Shown in pieces: positions 53,094-64,000 of a stretch of DNA of 64,000 nt. The stretch lies in assembly GCA_013995675.1 (NCBI GenBank), contig VWRR01000012.1, positions 482,606-546,605 on the forward strand, read 5' to 3'. Source of the DNA: Cyanidiococcus yangmingshanensis. Taxonomy: Eukaryota > Rhodophyta > Bangiophyceae > Cyanidiales > Cyanidiaceae. Positions within the stretch are counted from its first letter, which is position 1; the number at the start of each line of letters is the position of its first letter. Under the pieces are notes generated by a model that saw only the letters and a list, made by a program, of their open reading frames with translations, made no database searches and was not told the origin of the DNA. The translations under genes were made by a program, and so were the position numbers.

Positions 53094-55679
53094 ATGGGGT
53101 TCTCCAGCAATACCTTCGTGATAGTTTTGTCCGTTCTTCTGCTCTCTCTGGTCAGGACCCACGTAAGTGAGGCTGCCGCTACCCCGGCCCCTGTGAACGT
53201 TGTAAGCTGGACCTGGATTGGTGGCGAGAACGGAACCAACAACCCAGGAAACTACGGAACGCTGAACGAGACTTTTGAGGGAAACGTTCCTGGAGGACGG
53301 GTGGGCGCAGCGGCGTGGGTTGGAGGTTCGAACTTGGTCTATTTATTTGGTGGTACTGGTTACGATAATGTGACAGGTTCCGGATATTTGAATGATTTTT
53401 GGCAATTTAATACAAGCTCTTTGGAGTGGACATGGATCGGGGGTAACAAAACCGCCAACCAGCCAGGAGTCTACGGATCGTTCCGCGAGGGCAGCCCGAC
53501 GAATATTCCTGGGGGGCGTACCAACAGCGCATTCTGGCAATCTGATGAGCAACATTTCTGGTTATTCGGTGGAGTCGGACTTGATAGAGATGGCAATCTG
53601 GGCGAATTTAATGACATGTGGTTGTATGACACAGCGAGTGGCAACTGGACTTGGGTAGCAGGAAATGGCACCGCCAATGCTGTGCCGGTATACGGGCCGA
53701 AAGGCACGTATGGTCCTGACTATAATCCTGGTGGTCGGTTCGACACAGCCTTCTGGACGGGGTCAGATGGATTACTATGGTTGTTTGGTGGAGGGAGCTT
53801 CTTTGATAAGTATTTTTCGGATTTGTGGTCCTTCAATACATCTTCGTTTGAATGGGCATACCAGGGTGGCTCTATAGCGCTCAATCAACAAGGTAACTAC
53901 AGCACACCAGGCGTTGTGAACGCCTCCAATGCACCGGGTGCGCGTGCTGGACCCGCTACCTGGACGGACGCCGAAGGAAATCTATGGCTGCATGGCGGAT
54001 CTGGCCTCGGAAACAACGCAACACAGCAAGGTTATCTGAATGACCTCTGGGTCTATAACGCGAGTTTATCAGTGTGGATTTTCATTGCAGGGAATGACAC
54101 GGTGGATAATCCTGGAGTATATGGTACCTTTGGAGAGCTGTCACCTTCCAATTATCCAGGCGGAAGGGCTTTTGCCATGAGTTTTGTGGATGCTCTGGGT
54201 AACCTGCAGCTTTTTGGCGGCCTTGGTATTGGAAACTCGACCAACAACGCTCCTAATTTCCTGAATGATTTGTGGGTGTTCGACCTTAGCTCGCGTCAAT
54301 GGGCATGGATCAACGGGAGCACAGAGGTGAATGCAGTCGCTGATTATGGGGTGTTTAATGTCACTAGCGCAAATGTTGTGCCTGGAGCACGTTATGGCTC
54401 TGTACTCTGGAACATCAACGGCAATGATCCAATTCTATTTGGCGGAGATGGGTACTCGAACACATCTGGTATCGGATTGTTGAACGATGTGTTCACACTG
54501 ACAGAGGTATTGCCGACACCAACACCGACGGCTACGCCTACAGCGACACCAACACCGACACCAATATTTATCACGGAGGTATATTTGGTTCCGAATCGAA
54601 CAGTGTGTGCTGAAGTCTTGGTGAATATCACCAACTATATCAAGAATACGCTCGCAAATCGGAGTGTTGCGGTGAAAGTTACGAGCAATTGTGATTCTAT
54701 TTTTCCCCTTCCTCCAGTTATACGTCTCTTCAGTACAAAGAGGACCTCTACGAGACTGTCGGGGCCAATAGCTTTTCGTGCTTCTGGTGATTATCAAGCT
54801 ATATACAACATATCAGTCGCATGTAACACGTCCAGCACGTGCAACTCGACAACCTTGTCTCAGGCTGCTACCACAAGCAGGACGGCCCTCAGCAATGGCA
54901 CTGCATATTTGCCACCTGGTGCCAGTGGCCCGATCGCCACACCTTCACCAGAGCCAGAGCCTGTTCTGACTGATGGCAGTGCTGTGTGCTTCCCTGCTGA
55001 TGCATCCGTGCTCATCGATGACCAGAACCATGTCGTCCCCATGAGTGAGATACGTCCCGGCATGAGCGTGATGGGCGCCGACCAGCATGGCCGTCTCGTC
55101 CCAGATACGGTTCTGAGCTGGCTGCACTATGAGCCTAGCGCTGTCGGTGAGGTGCTGGTCATTGCGACCGCCTCGGGCAAGCGGCTGCGTCTCACCAGAC
55201 ACCATCTGGTGTATCGTCTTCAACAGCAACAGCAACAGAAAGATCAATACAAAATCCACGACAGGCAGAGGCATCAGTCGGGTACCGACCTGGGGAGCGC
55301 CTTTGAGGCTGTCTATGCGGAGCGCGTCCGCGTTGACGATGCTCTGTATGATGCCGTGTCGTGTTCGCTGGACCGTGTCGTGTCCATAGAGAGCACCCAG
55401 ACCCTGCATGGTCTGTACGCTCCCCTGACGCGTACGGGACGCCTCGTGGTCGACGGACTCCTGGTGAGCTGCTACGGCACGTATCCTTCGCACGCGGTGT
55501 CGCATGCGGTGCTGTGGCCAGCACGCGTCGATACGCTTCGTGGTCGCTGGGCGTCATTGCTGGGTGTCCATCACACCCAGGGTATTATGCCATACGCAGC
55601 ACACCTTTATGGGTTGTGGACGAGCATCGATCGCATGAGCCATGCGATCAAAGCGGGCATGATCGCTGCGGCCTGCTAA
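53094..55679 (+). CDS. Secreted kelch-repeat protein with C-terminal Hedgehog-type Hint (Hog) domain
   Basis: The 861-residue frame is intact. Residues 1-28 are a signal peptide (hydrophobic VIVLSVLLLSLV). Residues about 35-470 hold six kelch repeats, each with a WTWIGG-like strand, PGGR or PGAR, and LWLFGG ... LNDLW, forming a beta-propeller rich in N-glycosylation sequons. A Pro/Thr linker (about 473-493) and a 110-residue Ser/Thr/Asn-rich domain follow. Then comes a Hint domain from Cys632 (AVCFPADASVLID). Its key residues are visible: nucleophile Cys632, block-B Thr701 and His704 in LTRHHLVYR, and VVDGLLVSCYGTYPSHAVSHAVLWP (Cys793), very close to Hedgehog Hog sequence. Such domains cut themselves off at the Cys via a thioester, attaching a sterol or water to the released N-terminal part. 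A Gln-rich insert interrupts the Hint domain (about 711-716). The first four kelch units align closely with bacterial-type kelch proteins. Confidence 0.9.
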   Translation: MGFSSNTFVIVLSVLLLSLVRTHVSEAAATPAPVNVVSWTWIGGENGTNNPGNYGTLNETFEGNVPGGRVGAAAWVGGSNLVYLFGGTGYDNVTGSGYLNDFWQFNTSSLEWTWIGGNKTANQPGVYGSFREGSPTNIPGGRTNSAFWQSDEQHFWLFGGVGLDRDGNLGEFNDMWLYDTASGNWTWVAGNGTANAVPVYGPKGTYGPDYNPGGRFDTAFWTGSDGLLWLFGGGSFFDKYFSDLWSFNTSSFEWAYQGGSIALNQQGNYSTPGVVNASNAPGARAGPATWTDAEGNLWLHGGSGLGNNATQQGYLNDLWVYNASLSVWIFIAGNDTVDNPGVYGTFGELSPSNYPGGRAFAMSFVDALGNLQLFGGLGIGNSTNNAPNFLNDLWVFDLSSRQWAWINGSTEVNAVADYGVFNVTSANVVPGARYGSVLWNINGNDPILFGGDGYSNTSGIGLLNDVFTLTEVLPTPTPTATPTATPTPTPIFITEVYLVPNRTVCAEVLVNITNYIKNTLANRSVAVKVTSNCDSIFPLPPVIRLFSTKRTSTRLSGPIAFRASGDYQAIYNISVACNTSSTCNSTTLSQAATTSRTALSNGTAYLPPGASGPIATPSPEPEPVLTDGSAVCFPADASVLIDDQNHVVPMSEIRPGMSVMGADQHGRLVPDTVLSWLHYEPSAVGEVLVIATASGKRLRLTRHHLVYRLQQQQQQKDQYKIHDRQRHQSGTDLGSAFEAVYAERVRVDDALYDAVSCSLDRVVSIESTQTLHGLYAPLTRTGRLVVDGLLVSCYGTYPSHAVSHAVLWPARVDTLRGRWASLLGVHHTQGIMPYAAHLYGLWTSIDRMSHAIKAGMIAAAC

Positions 55680-57769
55680 TCATGGGCTTAGCGAAAGCGT
55701 AACGAAGGCTACTGGTGGAGTGGTCGATACCGCTAGCGTGTTTCGATGAACAACCGCCACGGAGCCTAGACGGCTGATGAGCACCGAGCTGGAAATGATG
55801 AGCATGAGGATCTACATGGAATCGGTTGGACGACGAGAACTCTAGTTGACATGACTTGTCAACACGAATCGCAACACGGAGAGAGATGAATGTGCACAAC
55901 TGGACAGGGAAGCAAAAAGAAAAAGAAAAAAATACTTTTGTCAAAAACCAACTCGTAATGAGACAAACGAAGTATGATTGTGCTGGAGCGCCATGGACAG
56001 AATCTATAAAGAACAGCCGATAACGACGATTACAAATCATTGAAGCGTATCCAAGTATGGAATCAGATCCGTCATAGATTTACGACCTCTCTCATCGTCC
56101 ATATTGGCTTGGGTCCGCATGGAAGTCGCAAACGTATTTGGCGAATCATCTGTCTCTACTTGATCAGCGATAGGGTAACGATGTTCTGCAGCTGGATACA
56201 TTGCTCTTAGTCCCATATGCTTTCAGAGAAGATGACCGGGCTGTCCATACGAGCATACCGACTTGTTTGGTTTGAGTCTCTATCTCTCTCCTTCTCATTC
56301 TCTCATTCACTCCTTGAGAGACATTGAAGCCCGCCATAAGTGCAGAAAAGCGGTGCTCCTGGCCTCTGGCCGAATGGAGCGTGCGCAGAAGGCACTCCTG
56401 CACTAGGAACGAGCCTAAATGCAAGAAAGCGCTGGGAAACAGCTCTGTCCAGAAACAAAGTGCTGCACGAAACGAAATGACCAGTACATGCAATTGACAT
56501 CGAGTAACAGATTCCGAGTCGCGGTGAAGCAACCATCCTATGAATCCTCCTAGTGACTGTCGTGTTGTAGGTTGAAACACCCATGCAGAGACGAACTTTC
56601 AGAATAGCTTCGCGCAGCTGCTCCAGACTCGATGATGCGCGCTCGATCAATAACGGGGCTGGCACGTCTCGGTGCCATACCCAAATCCTCGACATGGTGT
56701 TTCTGTCGTGTATTGCTGTCCCCGAAGACTTGAATAGAGCACTTTTTTGTTTACGAGTCCTTTTCCGTAAAACATTGACGACTTTGGGGTTCTCGCTCAG
56801 CTGGACTCTGCGTGCTTGCAAAGATCACCCAGGTCTTTCGTGATTGGGTGCACCCACAGAAGCGAGGGCCGTTCTGTCGGCTTTGCCCGTTCCGCTCGCT
56901 CTGAACGCTCTGCCCGCTGTGCCCGGTGTCGTCGGCTAGGCCAGGGCCTGAGTGGAGTTTTTTTTCATAAGATTTTTTCCAGTACATTTCTGGTCTTTTT
57001 TTACGTATTTGGTCACTAAGTGCTTATTTGGTGGTTACTGGTTACATGAAGGCAAGTTTGGTATGTTCTGCTGAGATTCAGAAAATCGTCCGTAACAAGG
57101 GTGCACCCCAGGAGAGCGGCGTCCCTGTCGATGGCCGTGCCAGCGCGCACCGGCAATGGATCGAAGGCGGCGCAGCCGCGGCCAGCAATTTCCTCGGGCC
57201 AGCTAGTCGATAGCGCACACCCATCATGATTTTTCGGGGGGTGGATTCGGCTTCATCTTGCGCTCTGGGTCTACGCGATTGTTTGTCGGCGATCGTTAAA
57301 GTTGTTGGTTGTCGCTGGCGTTTTTTAGTGCTCAGACCAGTCGCCGGTGGCTAGGAGCGCCGAGATGCGCCCGGCGCCTCTAGCACGTATATAGAATGGG
57401 GATAGTATTGACTCCAGGACTGGTTGCGGTCATGACACTTAAAAATGTTTTGGTACATAACTCTCCAAATATTCGTTTTCTTCTTTTTCTGTTCACCTTG
57501 TTTTGCATGAATGTCATGCAATTTTTTTAGTGTGGTTGATACTTGAGAGACCGGACCCTGATGATCAGGTCCAGCTGGCGGCAGGGATTCAGTCCCAGGA
57601 CGGACTAGCGCAGTGATGATCAGCTCCGCCAGTAGAGGAGAGCGCATCCGATGCTATAGCGGCCGGTCCATGGGTCTGGTCGCAGCCGCTGAGTTTGGCT
57701 GGTGTCTCTACAATCCAGAACAGTGTATATGTCGAGCAGAGTGGATATTTTCCACTCCTGAATGGTTTC
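55680..57769. other. Gene-free subtelomere-like DNA
   Basis: No convincing gene. Short frames lack motifs. Bases 57057-57110 (TTTGGTATGTTCTGCTGAG ... AATCGTCCGT ... GGTGCACC) are a diverged relative of the 200-base tandem unit at 60541-61190. T-rich runs lie near 56961-57002. Confidence 0.6.
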
Positions 57770-58441
57770 GTCGATCCATAATGTCAGGTCATTATAGGCC
57801 CATGTCTAACGTTCATGGTGCTTGTCATAATTTTTCGATCGACCATAGCGACGGCCATGACCATCGATGGCATCGACTCTCAAAGGTGTGTCATCTGGAC
57901 CAGGGATCCATGATGCTGGTATGGCGACTGTTGGCGTTGTCTTCATGTTTTTGATCGATTCTGGCAACGGTCACTCCCATGACTGAAATCGTCTCTTATT
58001 GAAGGGTCACCTGGATCTAGGATCGAAAAACTAGCAGGGCTTTTGTTGGCACTGGCGCTGGCCCGCCTCGGTTGGAGTGCCATCCCGCGATTCTGTCGTA
58101 AGACGCTGTGGCGCAGCAAGTGCTGCCTCCGAGCGCTGTCCCGTAGATCTTGTGACGGTGAGCTGTCCCGCCGGCGCGCTGTCCCGCGTATGCTGTCCGG
58201 CCAGAGGCGGTGGCGCATCACTGCAGGGGCGACGCTTCGATTGCGCGTGCAGGCGTTGGCGTCCAATTGCTCAATCGTATGCTGGTGTTCGCTGGCGATC
58301 TCGTGCGGCGTCGCAGCGTCTGTCCATTTTCGGTCAGGCAAAAGCGTGCGTGCGCCTGCGCCTAGGCCTGCGCCTGCGCAAAGGCGTTGGCGGGAAATGC
58401 GCGCCGCGCGATGGATCTGTCGCGGCCAGTCGTGTCCAGTC

Positions 58442-58557
58442 CAGTAGTGGCCTGTGCTGTCCAGATGTGTCTAGCTCCGTCGAGATCAGTCGAGTCCAAT
58501 GCAGTAGTAGCCTGTGCTGTCCAGATGTGTCTAGCTCCGTCGAGATCAGTCGATCTA
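58442..58557. repeat. 60-base tandem duplication
   Basis: Two nearly identical units (58442-58501 and 58502-58557) containing GCCTGTGCTGTCCAGATGTG and TCTAGCTCCGTCGAGATCAG. It is present in copy A of the dispersed repeat but not in copy B. Confidence 0.9.
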
Positions 58558-58885
58558 TGCTGTCGTAGATTGCCGGGCGACCGATGGTGACCGATAGTGC
58601 CCGATCGTAACCGTTTGTTCCAGCTCCGTGTCTCCAAAGATTGATTTTCGATCTCCAAGCGCCGGTGTGTTTGTTGTCTGCTCGTATGATAGAGCACTCG
58701 CCAGTGGCGATCCATGCCTGATATCGCTTGAGTACCATGGATTGATTGGCATGATGAACCGATGATTGCTTGACGAGTTCATCACTAGACAGGTGTGTGT
58801 ATGCGCAAAAGGCTTGAACGCGCCGCTGCTGCCATGCCATGGCTCGTCCCAGCGACAAGAAAGAAAGCAGCCCCAAGGCATCCCC

Positions 58886-58978
58886 GGCGGCGCCCTTGAA
58901 TCGGGTGATGTGCGCAGCCTAGATCGGGCGGGACGGCGGCGCCCTTGAATCGGGTGATGTGCGCAACCTAGATCGGGC
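58886..58978. repeat. 49-base tandem duplication
   Basis: Two units starting at 58886 and 58935 with GGCGGCGCCCTTGAATCGGG and TGATGTGCGCA. The frames they create are by-products. Confidence 0.9.
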
Positions 58979-59756
58979 TAGGCGGCGGCGCCCGATCCGA
59001 TGGAGGCGGCGGCGCGAAATCGCCGGAACGAATCGCCAGGAGCGCGGCGCGGCCGGCGCCAGCGTACCCATCCTCGAAATCGAGTCGATCTCGGTGCGCT
59101 CTGATCGTCGGCGCCAGCAGGAGACCGATCGAGCCGGGTATCCATTGATCAGCGGCGATAAAAAAATTCTGGGAGCGATCTGAATCGGACGCGTGCGCAA
59201 GCGCCGTGTCCGTAGAAAAGCCCCATGGCAGCGAACGATCGATAGGGATGGAGGACACCAGCAGAGCGCTGAGCTAGAGCGATCCTACAGGAATGCCCAA
59301 AGTAAGCAGCAGGCTACTGGTAAGGATCTACACCGATATTGATAAACAAGATTGAACCCAGCGCGACGAAAACAACCAACGCTCGCAGCAACCGTAAACA
59401 AACATACTGCCGACCAGTTCAGTCTGGAGAAAATACACCATCCCAAGAAAAAAAACTAAACAAGTAATTGTAAAGGCAGACCGCGAAAAAAAAGCAGATT
59501 ACCCGTAAAAAGCTGCTAGCGGCAGCAGCCCAAACGCGAGTTCATCGAGAAAGACAGCGAATCTCGATGCAAAGGGAAAAAGTACGCGAGCAATCCGTAA
59601 ACACCATGGAATGGAAAAACCTAAACATGGACAGCAAAAGCAAAGCCGAACAGTCCCAAGAACGATCCATGAATAGGCATCGCGCAGAGCCAATGCTCGA
59701 TCGAACCTGAGTCATCATTGAAAGTCTGTAGATACGGGGAATATAGAAAAAAAGAT

Positions 59757-59920
59757 GAACGAGCGGAGCGTGAGGAATATGTGGAATAGGGTGAATGAGA
59801 TGGCTCAGTAAAATGGGGTAAATGGAGTGAATGAGATGCCTCAGTGAAACGCGGTGAATGGGACTGACATGATGAAATTGTGGTGAATGGGGTGAATGGG
59901 CTGGTCGGATATGATTGTTC
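59757..59920. repeat. Degenerate G-rich GGTGAATG-type array
   Basis: Irregular repeats of GGTGAATGAGATG, GGTGAATGGGACTG and GGGGTGAATGGG. The words resemble the reported Cyanidioschyzon telomere unit AATGGGGGG in degenerate form, G-rich strand pointing right, as an interstitial telomere-like or subtelomeric satellite would. The link to telomeres is a weak inference. Confidence 0.65.
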
Positions 59921-60351
59921 TGGGCCCTTTCGATGGAGCCAAGCTCCCTATCAACCAGAAGTCGGTTTTCTATTTATCGTTAGGGCTTCAGAGTGTGTCC
60001 TGGTTACGCACTCCATGCTGGCTGGCAGCGCTCAGCTGGACGCGGGTCACAGGTGAGCGGCCCTTGGGCGATCGAGGTCGCCTCTCAAGCTCGATCGGGC
60101 GTTGTGTCTGCGCTCGTCCGCTGCTCTTGAGCTTGTGGTTGAGTGTTGGTGACGTTTTCCTTCTCTCTGTTTTGTTCGGTTTTGTTTTTTTTTGTGGTGA
60201 AGTTTCTTTTGGTCTGGTTTCAGTTTCAGTTTCAGTTTCTGTTTTTGTTATTGTTGTTGCTTTTAGTTTTTGGGTATTTTGATGACCTCTCGAGAGAGTA
60301 CGGCTGGGCAGTCGAGGGTGGTGTGTGCCCGAGTCCGCCAGGGCTGAGAGC

Positions 60352-60427
60352 TTAGCCTAGCCGAGCGCAGCCAGGCGCAGCGCAGCCCAGCCTAGCCGAG
60401 CGCAGCCCAGCGCAGCCCAGCGCAGCC
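60352..60427. repeat. GCGCAGCC-type minisatellite
   Basis: Tandem variants of 10-base GCGCAGCCCA and AGCCTAGCCG. It lies directly upstream of the 200-base tandem array. Confidence 0.9.
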
Positions 60428-60540
60428 TCTTGTGGCGTGTCAGGCTAGGGCTGTAGCCGTGTTTTGAAGAGCTTTGGCGGTGCGTTTGAGGTGTTGTTCT
60501 TTTGTTTTTTGTTATTTTCTTTTTGTATATTTGTTGATTA

Positions 60541-61190
60541 GTATGTGAGGGACGGTTTGGTGTGTTTTGTTGAGAGTCTGAGGATCGTCGGTGATTGGGT
60601 TCACACCGGCTGGCCCGGGCCAGTCTATCGACTGGTGGCGTTGAGCCGGGGCCTAAGCTGTGTTTTCACAGGCTCTCGAGGCTGGTTTCTGGCCTTGTTC
60701 TTCAGTTTTTCTCCGGTTTCTTTTTACACACGTGTTATTGGTAGCTTCAGGCCTGGTTTGGTATGCCTCGCTGTGATTTTGAGAATCGTCGGTGATTGAG
60801 CACACTGGCTGGCCCGGGCCAGTCTATCGACTGGTGGCGTCGAGCCGGGCCCGAAGCTGTGTTTTCGACAGCTTTCGAGGCTGGTTTCTGTTCTTGTTCT
60901 TAAGTTTTTCTCCGGTTTCTTTTTACAGACGTGTTATTGAGGGCTTCAAGAGTGGTTTGGTATGCCTCACTGTGATTTTGAGAATCGTCGGTGATTGGGT
61001 GCACCGGCTGGCCCGGGCCAGTCTATCGACTGGTGGCGTTGAGCCGGGGCCGAAGCTGTGTTTTCACAGGCTCTCGAGGCTGGTTTCTGGCCTTGTTCTT
61101 CAGTTTTTCTCCGGTTTCTTTTATATTCTTGTCGCTGAGTATGTGAGGGACATTTTGGCGTGATTTGTTGATTTCGCCAAAATCGTCGGT
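60541..61190. repeat. Tandem array of about 200-base units, three copies plus a partial
   Basis: The marker ATCGTCGGTGAT begins at 60584, 60785, 60984 and 61183, giving periods of 201, 199 and 199. Each full unit has GGCTGGCCCGGGCCAGTCTA (containing the SmaI-like palindrome CCCGGG), GACTGGTGGCGT, GAGCCGGG, GAAGCTGTGTTTTC, TCGAGGCTGGTTTCTG and TTTTTCTCCGGTTTC. The ends of the array share GTATGTGAGGGAC. The open frames it produces repeat with the units and are not judged genes. Confidence 0.95.
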
Positions 61191-61829
61191 GATCAGGTGC
61201 TCCCCCCGAGATCGTCCCTCCGTTTCTAGGGACGGTACGAGGGCGCGCCCGCAACGGGACAGCGTGGCGCGATGGCCGCTGCGTATCCATGCATCTATTC
61301 CTCGCTGGCCAGCTGTGCGAGCTGGTCGACGCGTCGTACGTATCGTTTCTGGCTGGGTCGGTTTCTGCATTTTGTTTTTTATTTTATTATTTATTTTTTT
61401 GCTATCGCTCAGTCTAGAATACTGGTTGTTATTGTTATTGTTGGTGGTTTTAGTTTTGGTGTTGGTTTTGGTGTTGGTAGTGCTCAGCTCAGTCGACTGC
61501 AGGTGGGTCTGCGGAGGCGCTCGCCGGTGCCTCCAGTGCCTGTAGTGCGTCTGGTGCGCTCAGTAACTGTAGAGAGAAATGGTCGTGGCTCCAGGGCGAG
61601 CTACTATCTCACCGGCTCTGGGCGCTTTGTTTCTTGAGCTGCGCAGTTTTTCTTTTTCTTTTTCTTTTTTCGGTTCCCCTGTGTTTGTAAAAAAGGTTCA
61701 TATGATTTTTATGGTTGCTGAGAGCTGTGGGGTCGGAGCATGATCCGGTCCCACCAGGGTGCGTGCGTGTGTGTCGGTGCTAGTGCTGCGCACCGCGTCG
61801 AACAGAACCACGACTGGAGGGTGCAGCGC

Positions 61830-62008
61830 AGCTCTGTTCAGCTCCGTTAATCTCCGGTAACCTCTGTTCAGCTATGTTGAGCTCTGGTCGGCTCAGTTAA
61901 TCTCCGGTAACCTCTGTTCAGCTATGTTGAGCTCTACTCAGCTCCGTTAGTCTCCGTTAGTCTCCGTTAGTCTCCGGTAATCTCTGTTCAGCTCAGTTCA
62001 GCTCAGGC
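61830..62008. repeat. Minisatellite of 10-base TCTCCGTTAG/TCTGTTCAGC units
   Basis: A 50-base higher-order period (TCTCCGGTAACCTCTGTTCA at 61851 and 61901) built of related 10-mers, expanded by two extra TCCGTTAGTC units before 61971. Confidence 0.95.
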
Positions 62009-62109
62009 CAACAAGGCAGGTTGCTGAATTTTTTTTGCACCAACTCTGTTTTGTATTGCTATTTTTTTCAGGTAACCCTCCATTCAAGAGCAGGGTAAGA
62101 ATCAGGCCG

Positions 62110-63990
62110 AGTAGATTTTTTTTGTTATTTTTTTGCATGCCCATGGTCGCTTCGTTTCGGATCGTCAAGTCACCATTAGGTCCGTTCCCAGTGTTCATGG
62201 TGTCGTTTCCTACTGTGATCGATGCTGGCACCAGCAACTGCGCAATCTCTGTGAATACCGCTGCTGCTACTGTTGCCGCTGTTGGCCATCGCGATCGGAA
62301 TTGTCAATCGGCATCGGCATCGGCATCGCTCTCGACCATCGGCATCGGCATCGGTATCGCTCTCGGCCATCGGCATCGGTATCAGCATCGCTCTCGGCCA
62401 TCGCTGAAATCGTCTCCGTCAGGCGCGCCGTGAGGATCTAGGATCGATGATACCGGATGGCATTGTTGGTCTGGTTCTGGCGCTGGCGCTGGCGCCGCCG
62501 ACCAAACGACAGTTGCGCGTTGAATTGGGTCGGACGCTCGGATTGGCTGCTTGCACGCCTCGGCTGGGGTGCGCGCCGTGTCCGTCTGTCTGTCGCAGGA
62601 CGCTGTGGCGCAGCAGGTGCTGTCCTGGGGAGCTGTCAGGGAATGATGTCTTGGGGAGCTGTCACGTTGATCCTGTGACGGTGAGCTGTCTCGTGGACGC
62701 TGTCCCGTCAGAGGCGGCGGCGCATCACTGCTGGGGGCGGCGCATCGATTGCTCGTGCGAGCGTTCGCATGCAATCGCTCGCTGGCGTCCGCTGGCTTCC
62801 GCTGGCGTTCGCTGGCGCTCGCTGGCGATCGCGTGCGGCGTCGCAGCGTCTGTCCATTTTCGGTCAGGCAAAAGCGTGCGTGCGCGTGCGCGTGCGCCTG
62901 CGCCTAGGCGTTGGCGGGAGATGCGCGCCGCGCGATGGATCTGTCGCGGCTAGTCGTGTCCAATTCTGTGCTGTCCAGTCCAGTCGTGGCCTGGCGATCG
63001 ACAGCGGCGCAGGATGCGTTCGCTGTTCTCAATCGCCGACCGACCGAGCGTGTCCGAGGTGAACGATCGTGCTGTTCGCTACTCCCCAGAGGTTTCCATA
63101 ACTGATATTCATTGAATACGACATAGCATAGCATGTCGTCAGCTCGAATAATATTGAGAAAGCGCCAATACCAATCATTGTTCATACAGACAAGACAACC
63201 ATGGGTCTATTGAGATGTTAAATAGTCAGTTGGTCCGATCAATCTATATTTGAGCAGTTGGGCACAAAAGAGTAAGTCAGAGCGAAACGAAAACCTTGAA
63301 GATCTATGCGAGTCTCCAACGATTCATGCTGTGGTCGACGAGCGAACCAGCATCGTTCGGATCTGCATGGGTCCTTGGTTGTGCAGCCATTCGCCAGCTC
63401 GTTATTGTCTCAAACCGGAAAAGATCCCTGCAGGAGCGTCTAGGCCAGGCAGCGGCGTCGTGGAGGATCGTAACTGTGGTCCCAGCTGCGACGTCGAGGG
63501 CTCGTCCGAAGCAACCCCGATCGGCAGCATGCCTATCCAAGATGAGCAGGCGCCATTGGGCCAGTGAAGTATATCCAAGAGATCAGGTTGGACGCCGGGC
63601 CTCTGGGATGGGAGCGGCGGCATCGCAGAACGGCCAAGGAGCGCCGAATCGATGGCGGCGATGGCGGCGCCAGCATAGCACCCCTGGGCTACCTAACGAG
63701 TACCGTGTGATCCGATGGTTGTGCGCAAGGAGGTGCGCCTATCGAATCTGGAATCGAATGATCCGCGACGAGTAACCCTGGGAGCGATCCAAATCCGAGG
63801 CGTGCGCCAGCGCTGCGTCCAGTATGCATGTCCAACGGAGGCGAAAGAGCACTGAGGATGAAGATCTGAACAAGAGCACAAAGATTGACAATACGAAACG
63901 GTTCCCCAAACCGAGAAGCAACCTACTGGTAAGGATCTAGACCTAAATCGTTACCGAAGAAAAGACCCAGAGTTAAACAAATTAAGAGCT
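62110..63990. repeat. Dispersed subtelomeric repeat, copy B
   Basis: Second copy of the element at 57770-59420, about 4.3 kb away in direct orientation. It differs by many substitutions and by local expansions (GCGTTCGCTGGC-type repeats near 62780-62830; GTGCGC run near 62880). It runs almost to the window end. Confidence 0.8.
62311..62400. repeat. GGCATC hexamer array inside copy B
   Basis: Variants of (GGCATC)n and CGCTCTCGGCCATC in a roughly 33-36-base higher-order pattern. Confidence 0.9.
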
Positions 63991-64000
63991 AGTAGCGTCC

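Follow-up and report, generated by a model that had tools for sequence, protein, structure and literature searches.

Genes annotated as trefoil factor or hedgehog were listed at the chromosome ends of the red alga Cyanidioschyzon merolae already by Nozaki et al. 2007 (PMC1955436). Later, Cho et al. 2023 (PMC9812998) described the subtelomeric duplication of a family built from modules named K, T and H and a linker, including kelch+hint and kelch+trefoil fusions; three K+H genes were counted in Cyanidiococcus and 11 in Cyanidioschyzon, and the benefit could not be determined. The basis for the Hog family as a whole was given by Burglin 2008 (PMC2362128), where red algal members are noted. Here we report on a gene from the thermo-acidophilic hot-spring red alga Cyanidiococcus yangmingshanensis (assembly of 12.07 Mb in 20 contigs), which encodes a kelch head, a Thr/Pro-rich linker and a C-terminal Hog domain of the hint type. 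It lies in a stretch of 64,000 nucleotides, the whole of which we call the window; the window represents the right end of chromosome contig C4, and its last base is the last base of C4. Given this domain order, its subtelomeric position and the copies at many other chromosome ends, the gene is a member of the family of Cho et al. 2023.

Information on the expression of such genes became available in Plant Cell 2026 (PMC13353863), which reports walled diploid and wall-less haploid cells. Eight of the ten Hog genes of C. yangmingshanensis were haploid-predominant and one was diploid-predominant, in agreement with the proteome, and many trefoil-type proteins were mostly diploid by proteome. The same paper names the Hog proteins non-Hh Hog and mentions that proteins of this kind in general may have a role in lipid modification. 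In C. merolae, trefoil-type genes shift under nickel stress (PMC12112623).

The original prediction for this locus, made from the sequence, spoke of an undescribed system. This does not hold, because the end genes have been in print since 2007 (PMC1955436), the fusions since 2023 (PMC9812998) and the phase-biased expression since 2026 (PMC13353863). The fusion family is already known; new here are a subclass of Hog domains with a native histidine (His) as putative base, a block edge beside the predicted cleavage site and a pattern of variation in the kelch loops. The accessible text of Cho et al. 2023 contains no treatment of the active site, of a block boundary inside the gene or of the loop pattern. 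The reading that we favour, with a probability of roughly 0.5, is that the gene encodes a precursor with a self-cleaving Hog tail, from which a secreted kelch head would be released and probably be linked to a sterol on the wall-less haploid cells.

Gene and protein architecture

The gene and its parts are located as follows:
53094..55679, + strand: kelch-linker-Hog gene, 861 amino acids (single open reading frame without internal stop; Pfam; paralogues)
53094..53177, + strand: presumed signal peptide, residues 1-28 (hydrophobic segment judged by eye)
53196..54515, + strand: kelch domain with six repeats, residues 35-474 (Pfam, landmark alignment)
54516..54986, + strand: Thr/Pro-rich linker and a stretch of about 130 residues (~495-625; alignment with other chromosome-end genes)
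54987..55676, + strand: Hog domain (Hint plus sterol-recognition-like part), residues 632-861 (Pfam, alignments)

The domains, the N terminus of secretory type and the subtelomeric position that had been predicted are all borne out. The Pfam Hint profile PF01079 matches residues 630-843 with an E value of 3.5e-37 and 128.5 bits (cut-off 29.7), reaching position 209 of 213 of the profile, and the nearest relatives of the tail with solved structures are human SHH (3.4e-13) and Drosophila Hh. In the head, several Pfam kelch families score above their cut-offs (best E 5.3e-29), and the six repeats have their PGxR motifs at residues 66, 139, 212, 281, 355 and 430. The label galactose oxidase for the kelch part stems only from Pfam descriptions and from Cho et al. 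2023 (PMC9812998). A Hedge signalling domain was not found; Pfam up to an E value of 1 gives only kelch-type families and Hint. The N terminus is hydrophobic, and past residue 34 all 19-residue windows stay at or below 1.2 on the Kyte-Doolittle scale. All 24 N-glycosylation sequons are situated N-terminal to Cys632, 17 of them in residues 35-474, where shuffling gave a mean of 6.4 and none of 1000 shuffles reached 17. The stop codon is 8321 bases away from the end of C4. The last residue, 861 (codon 55674-55676), is Cys in all eight full-length subtelomeric copies and in the proteins P0003-P0006.

The linker stretch of about 130 residues (EVYLVPNRTVC..., about 54573-54968) recurs in the kelch-less Hog genes at the chromosome ends C1L and C9R, and the overlapping segment 54570-54971 has no Pfam match. 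A trefoil-type gene located at the left C4 end also shares it, though weakly.

Paralogues at other chromosome ends, which the original prediction had proposed to search for, were found. The profile search of the genome resulted in 14 Hint loci, all above cut-off. Nine of these, the window locus included, lie at chromosome ends. Four are intact kelch+Hog genes (C4R, in the window, C5R, C5L and C12L), two have broken kelch frames (C16L and C11R), two consist of linker and Hog without kelch (C9R and C1L) and one is a truncated Hog (C20L); Cho et al. 2023 reported three kelch+hint genes for Cyanidiococcus. Twelve intact kelch genes at other ends have a common, different C-terminal part, which is trefoil according to Pfam in the one scanned copy (C13L). 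The 20 compared genes (8 Hog, 12 trefoil-type) are uniformly oriented, with the 3' end towards the contig end and 3.3-13.3 kb away from it.

Active site of the Hog domain

The residues discussed in this section are encoded at the following positions:
54987..54989, + strand: nucleophile Cys632, with the predicted scissile bond Val631-Cys632 (Hedgehog alignment)
55125..55127, + strand: His678 at the Hedgehog general-base position, Asp303 in Drosophila (alignments including PDB 6TYY)
55194..55205, + strand: block B Thr701-His704, TxxH (alignment)
55470..55472, + strand: Cys793 of SCYG, motif J (alignment)
55587..55589, + strand: Met832 in place of the Hedgehog HWY His, GIMPY (alignment)

Cys632, Thr701, His704 and Cys793 align with the Cys1, TxxH and SCYA positions of Hedgehog, and the segment GIMPYxxxLY aligns with the GIHWY-type motif. 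The protein resembles the autoprocessing domain of Drosophila Hh and human SHH in Cys1, TxxH, SCYA/SCYG and the sterol-recognition-like tail. However, it differs in the missing Hedge domain, in His instead of the Asp base, in Met instead of the HWY His and in Val instead of Gly at position -1. Like the Hogs discussed by Burglin 2008 (PMC2362128), it carries the Hog domain behind an unrelated N-terminal part, but the complete red algal and moss Hogs described there have Ser, Thr or Asp instead of the motif J Cys, which is retained in all eight full-length subtelomeric copies here.

The histidine at the general-base site had been overlooked in the original prediction; together with the Val before the nucleophile, it bears on the lipidation proposed there. 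HMMER places His678 in the same column as the engineered His of PDB 6TYY, the Drosophila Hint variant D303H. In that variant, structure, pKa and cholesterol activity are kept and the activity with coprostanol is increased more than 200-fold (PMC9163320; PMC8529194, reviewing Zhao et al. 2019). D303H is an engineered single change in a Hedgehog context, whereas the His in the window protein is native and stands alongside other changes. We found no statement on a native His at this site in the openly licensed literature, as far as its text was accessible.

His occupies this site in all eight full-length subtelomeric copies, in an internal gene on C13, in P0004 and P0006 of C. merolae, in the similar metagenome proteins P0003 and P0005 and in a further metagenome protein, P0008. 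Asp is present at the remaining four internal Hog loci, of which C15 and C20 carry two each. Over 61 aligned Hog domains, the column contains 34 His, 26 Asp and one Tyr. Of these domains, 46 belong to the series P0003-P0050 (48 proteins in total), 13 are rows from the genome studied here and two are animal chains; the set is not a census, since the 46 came from word-limited protein searches, one of which scored the best 7993 candidates by shared words. P0007 and P0009 duplicate genome rows and were excluded, as were P0051 and the truncated C20L, in which the column is absent. P0001 and P0002 were not used either, since their genes are identical or nearly identical to some of the genome rows. 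Parsimony on the Hog tree gives six Asp/His changes, of which well-supported branches force only one, hence a repeated origin cannot be claimed. A coupling of Asp-to-His with the loss of the HWY His to Met was considered and rejected, because other His rows, for example P0025 with a Pocillopora name, retain HWY. When only rows with both Cys1 and the preceding residue visible are counted, Gly at -1 occurs in 13 of 19 Asp rows and in one of 24 His rows, with related rows not being independent.

With 34 of 61 aligned Hogs, including the Pocillopora-named protein, the native His turns a laboratory mutation into a natural subclass. This leads to the prediction that the catalytic base of many non-Hedgehog Hog domains is a different one and that their range of sterols may differ as well; an existing assay and a genetically tractable alga are at hand for a test.

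One may also ask whether the Hog domain is active at all. It could be silent or very slow, and the protein would then act as an uncleaved extracellular precursor. Two subtelomeric copies with broken kelch frames and one truncated Hog indicate that the family tolerates decay. However, all eight full-length copies and the C. merolae proteins agree in Cys1, TxxH, the general-base His and the Cys of motif J, and we regard a silent domain as distinctly unlikely.

A homogenised chromosome-end block

Two further features are relevant here:
54939..54986, + strand: zone in which the shared chromosome-end block starts (pairwise extension upstream of the Cys632 codon)
55680..64000, no strand: H-type subtelomere (first 1401 bases recur in the genome, tandem repeats further out)

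The 1401 bases after the stop codon of the window gene have at least nine copies in the genome, including the one in the window, each directly after a Hog stop codon. Over 1.4 kb, the 3' flanks of the eight compared Hog ends are 88-94% alike; in contrast, their 5' flanks are unrelated, except for C9R/C1L and C4R/C11R (475 bases). Similarly, DNA identity among the four intact kelch+Hog genes is 54-68% in the kelch part and 92-97% in the Hog part. The trefoil-type ends differ from this situation in that both 5' flanks (only about 200 bases in C7R) and 3' flanks are common, and the mean identities are 96.5% for the trefoil part and 79.3% for kelch.

The edge of the block was mapped by ungapped extension upstream of the Cys632 codon (+1/-2, X-drop 25) in 28 pairs. 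Three pairs share the upstream part, namely C4R/C16L over 447 nucleotides (nt), C5R/C11R over 1010 nt and C9R/C1L over 786 nt. In 23 of the remaining 25 pairs, which have unlike upstream lineages, the extension ends no more than 48 nt upstream of this codon: after 1 nt in every comparison with C12L, after 3-12 nt where C9R or C1L is compared with the remaining copies, and after 27-48 nt where C4R or C16L is compared with C5R, C5L and C11R. The two exceptions are C5L against C5R (96 nt at 86%) and C5L against C11R (78 nt at 81%). The low-complexity linker itself may stop conversion tracts. Judging from these comparisons, the Hog half belongs to a homogenised chromosome-end block, and we retain concerted evolution of this block as our reading. 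The edge next to the cleavage site, on which the accessible part of the openly licensed literature yielded no statement, shows how chromosome ends can hold a C-terminal domain uniform behind unlike partner domains.

Further out, the subtelomere contains several tandem arrays, e.g. 199 bp x 2.7 at 60579-61122, and the region 57500-59500 has at least 62 matches in the genome, many of them at contig ends (40 of 72 candidates scored). An open reading frame of 130 codons at 56303-56695 on the - strand is open over aligned 124-136 residues in all eight other Hog ends. It was not called a gene, because its protein identity of 78-93% is not clearly above that of the DNA (about 90-93%).

Kelch lineages and loop variation

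The kelch head of the window protein shows 70-72% amino acid identity to nine of the 12 trefoil-type kelches and 62-68% to the other three, compared to 51-64% to the other three intact Hog-type kelches. We first read this as an exchange of C-terminal modules between similar kelch heads. This claim was dropped in favour of concerted evolution of the Hog block, since a single split of Hog-type from trefoil-type kelches was not rejected.

The gene at C5L provides a cross-check. Its kelch is 68% identical to the metagenome protein P0003 and only 48-51% to the kelches of the three remaining intact kelch+Hog genes in the same genome, whereas its Hog is 55% identical to P0003 and 89-91% to the Hogs of its own genome. 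One clade for the four own-genome kelch+Hog kelches was rejected by the approximately unbiased (AU) test (p 7e-13), and C5L groups with P0003 with support 99/99. The Hog of P0003 is nearest to that of C. merolae (72-74%), which suggests that P0003 is from another species. If so, the kelch lineages would be older than the species split and the Hog would have been homogenised since.

Variation within the head was analysed in 16 intact kelch domains, with positions classed, and loop faces thereby assigned, by sequence landmarks only: DA (three residues after PGxR), BC (after GG up to ND), AB and CD (opposite face), the long D-A linker and the remaining framework. In Keap1-like kelch propellers, DA and BC loops carry ligand contacts. 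Mean entropy was 1.64 bits in DA and 1.48 in BC, followed by 0.98 in AB, 0.90 in CD, 0.84 in the long linker and 0.34 in the framework. DA and BC together exceed AB and CD (p 5e-5), and their mean of 1.52 was reached by none of 439 circular label shifts. The pattern recurs in another group of proteins, consisting of two from C. merolae and the similar metagenome protein P0005. Here, 34 of 62 DA/BC columns are variable, compared to 49 of the 368 remaining kelch columns, in which AB and CD were not set apart (p 6e-12).

Proposed processing and alternatives

Regarding the possible lipid, the genome has one locus that matches the C-terminal profile of sterol C24-methyltransferase and one that matches the profile of squalene/oxidosqualene cyclase, so that 24-alkyl sterols are possible. 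Ergosterol and 24-ethyl sterols have been reported for Cyanidium and Galdieria; the sterol profile of C. merolae is unmeasured, and a cholesterol pathway was inferred from its genome (PMC8172173).

Cleavage, lipid and location of the kelch-Hog protein are what we infer as follows. The kelch propeller would be secreted and probably glycosylated. In the secretory pathway, Cys632 would attack the carbonyl of Val631 to form a thioester, aided by Thr701 and His704, and His678 would then serve as the general base for a 3-hydroxy sterol bound in the C-terminal part that resembles a sterol-recognition region. The product would be a kelch head with a C-terminal sterol ester at the plasma membrane of the wall-less haploid cells, while the kelch+trefoil proteins would retain a similar head in the walled diploid via the trefoil module. 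The telomere-side Hog half is homogenised among chromosome ends together with the DNA beyond it; the kelch heads stay distinct and vary mainly in those loops that make up the ligand face in known kelch propellers.

This proposal is based on the Hint profile, the catalytic residues, the His at the general-base site and the activity of D303H in Drosophila. Further points in its favour are the lack of a second strongly hydrophobic anchor, the loci with sterol-enzyme profiles, the reported phase bias (PMC13353863), the contrast of 3' and 5' flanks, the mapping of the block edge, the C5L/P0003 comparison and the loop variation in both protein sets.

Nevertheless, a number of observations weigh against it. 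Typical Hedgehogs have Gly at position -1, but six of the eight subtelomeric copies have Val there, C12L has Lys and C11R has Arg, and a residue other than Gly may slow the first self-cleavage step. The HWY His is replaced by Met in the window Hog and its clade. A six-frame search of the genome, in which introns could hide a match, gave none for the Patched and sterol-sensing profiles PF02460 and PF12349, hence there is no sign of a Hedgehog-like route of release or reception. Transcripts of the trefoil-type genes of C. yangmingshanensis are mixed, with seven of 16 diploid-predominant and five of 16 haploid-predominant (PMC13353863). The single split of the kelches was not rejected (AU p 0.44), and the loop faces depend on landmarks. 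Furthermore, positive selection was expected in the loops, but the ratios of nonsynonymous to synonymous changes (dN/dS) by the Nei-Gojobori method (NG86) were below 1 in every kelch class (0.07-0.53). For all 16 domains, they amounted to 0.30 in DA, 0.39 in BC, 0.31 in AB+CD, 0.26 in the long linker and 0.07 in the framework. The respective values for the 10 closest trefoil-type copies were 0.41, 0.53, 0.39, 0.25 and 0.08, i.e. ligand-face and opposite loops differ little. In the set of 16, synonymous sites are near saturation in places. Synonymous differences are also high in the loops, to which conversion of segments may contribute, as may misalignment where loops differ in length.

Val at -1, Met for the HWY His and the lack of a sterol-sensing or Patched match would also suit another course, in which the chain is cut before Cys632 and water or some other small nucleophile then resolves the thioester, leaving a soluble kelch head without lipid. 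However, the Hog domain retains the GIxxYxxxLY segment and the Cys of SCYG, its match to the Hint profile extends nearly to the profile's end, and Drosophila Hint with an engineered His at this position is capable of sterol transfer (PMC9163320). We rate this course as less likely than the sterol-linked head, though deserving some weight.

The dN/dS values and the phase bias also bear on the variable surface family that the original prediction had considered. That part stands insofar as the heads vary mostly in one set of loops, and a subtelomeric variable-antigen system with switching expression would fit this variation as well as the uniform position and orientation of the 20 compared genes near contig ends. 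However, we know of no immune pressure on this free-living alga, and dN/dS is below 1. Moreover, eight of ten Hog genes being haploid-predominant is unlike one-at-a-time switching (PMC13353863). Taken together, we consider antigen switching improbable.

With cleavage and sterol linkage still taken as the favoured course, a much bolder and rather speculative extension, to which we give little credence as a whole, would be a recognition repertoire. Diversified kelch heads would be displayed on naked haploids by a His-based Hog that attaches the own sterols of the alga, and on walled diploids by trefoil modules. The Hog-bearing chromosome end would then be a portable anchor cassette with its edge at the self-cleavage site, and the heads would serve mating or kin recognition between haploids.

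Other Hog and trefoil-type loci

The internal Hog gene at C13:293410-294912 (L017 1911-3413, - strand), one of those with His at the general-base site, has a different, cysteine-containing N-terminal part. The word-limited search with its protein found two proteins; the metagenome protein P0008 is a relative with 61% identity. The four internal Hog loci with the Asp site (L043-L046) form two pairs, one on C15 and one on C20, with the members of a pair lying about 3 kb from each other, and keep the HWY-type His; the C15 locus L043 has no Cys1 in its open frame. L018, the trefoil-type gene located at the left C4 end, has a long Thr/Pro/Ala repeat linker and two overlapping frames and is apparently frame-disrupted.

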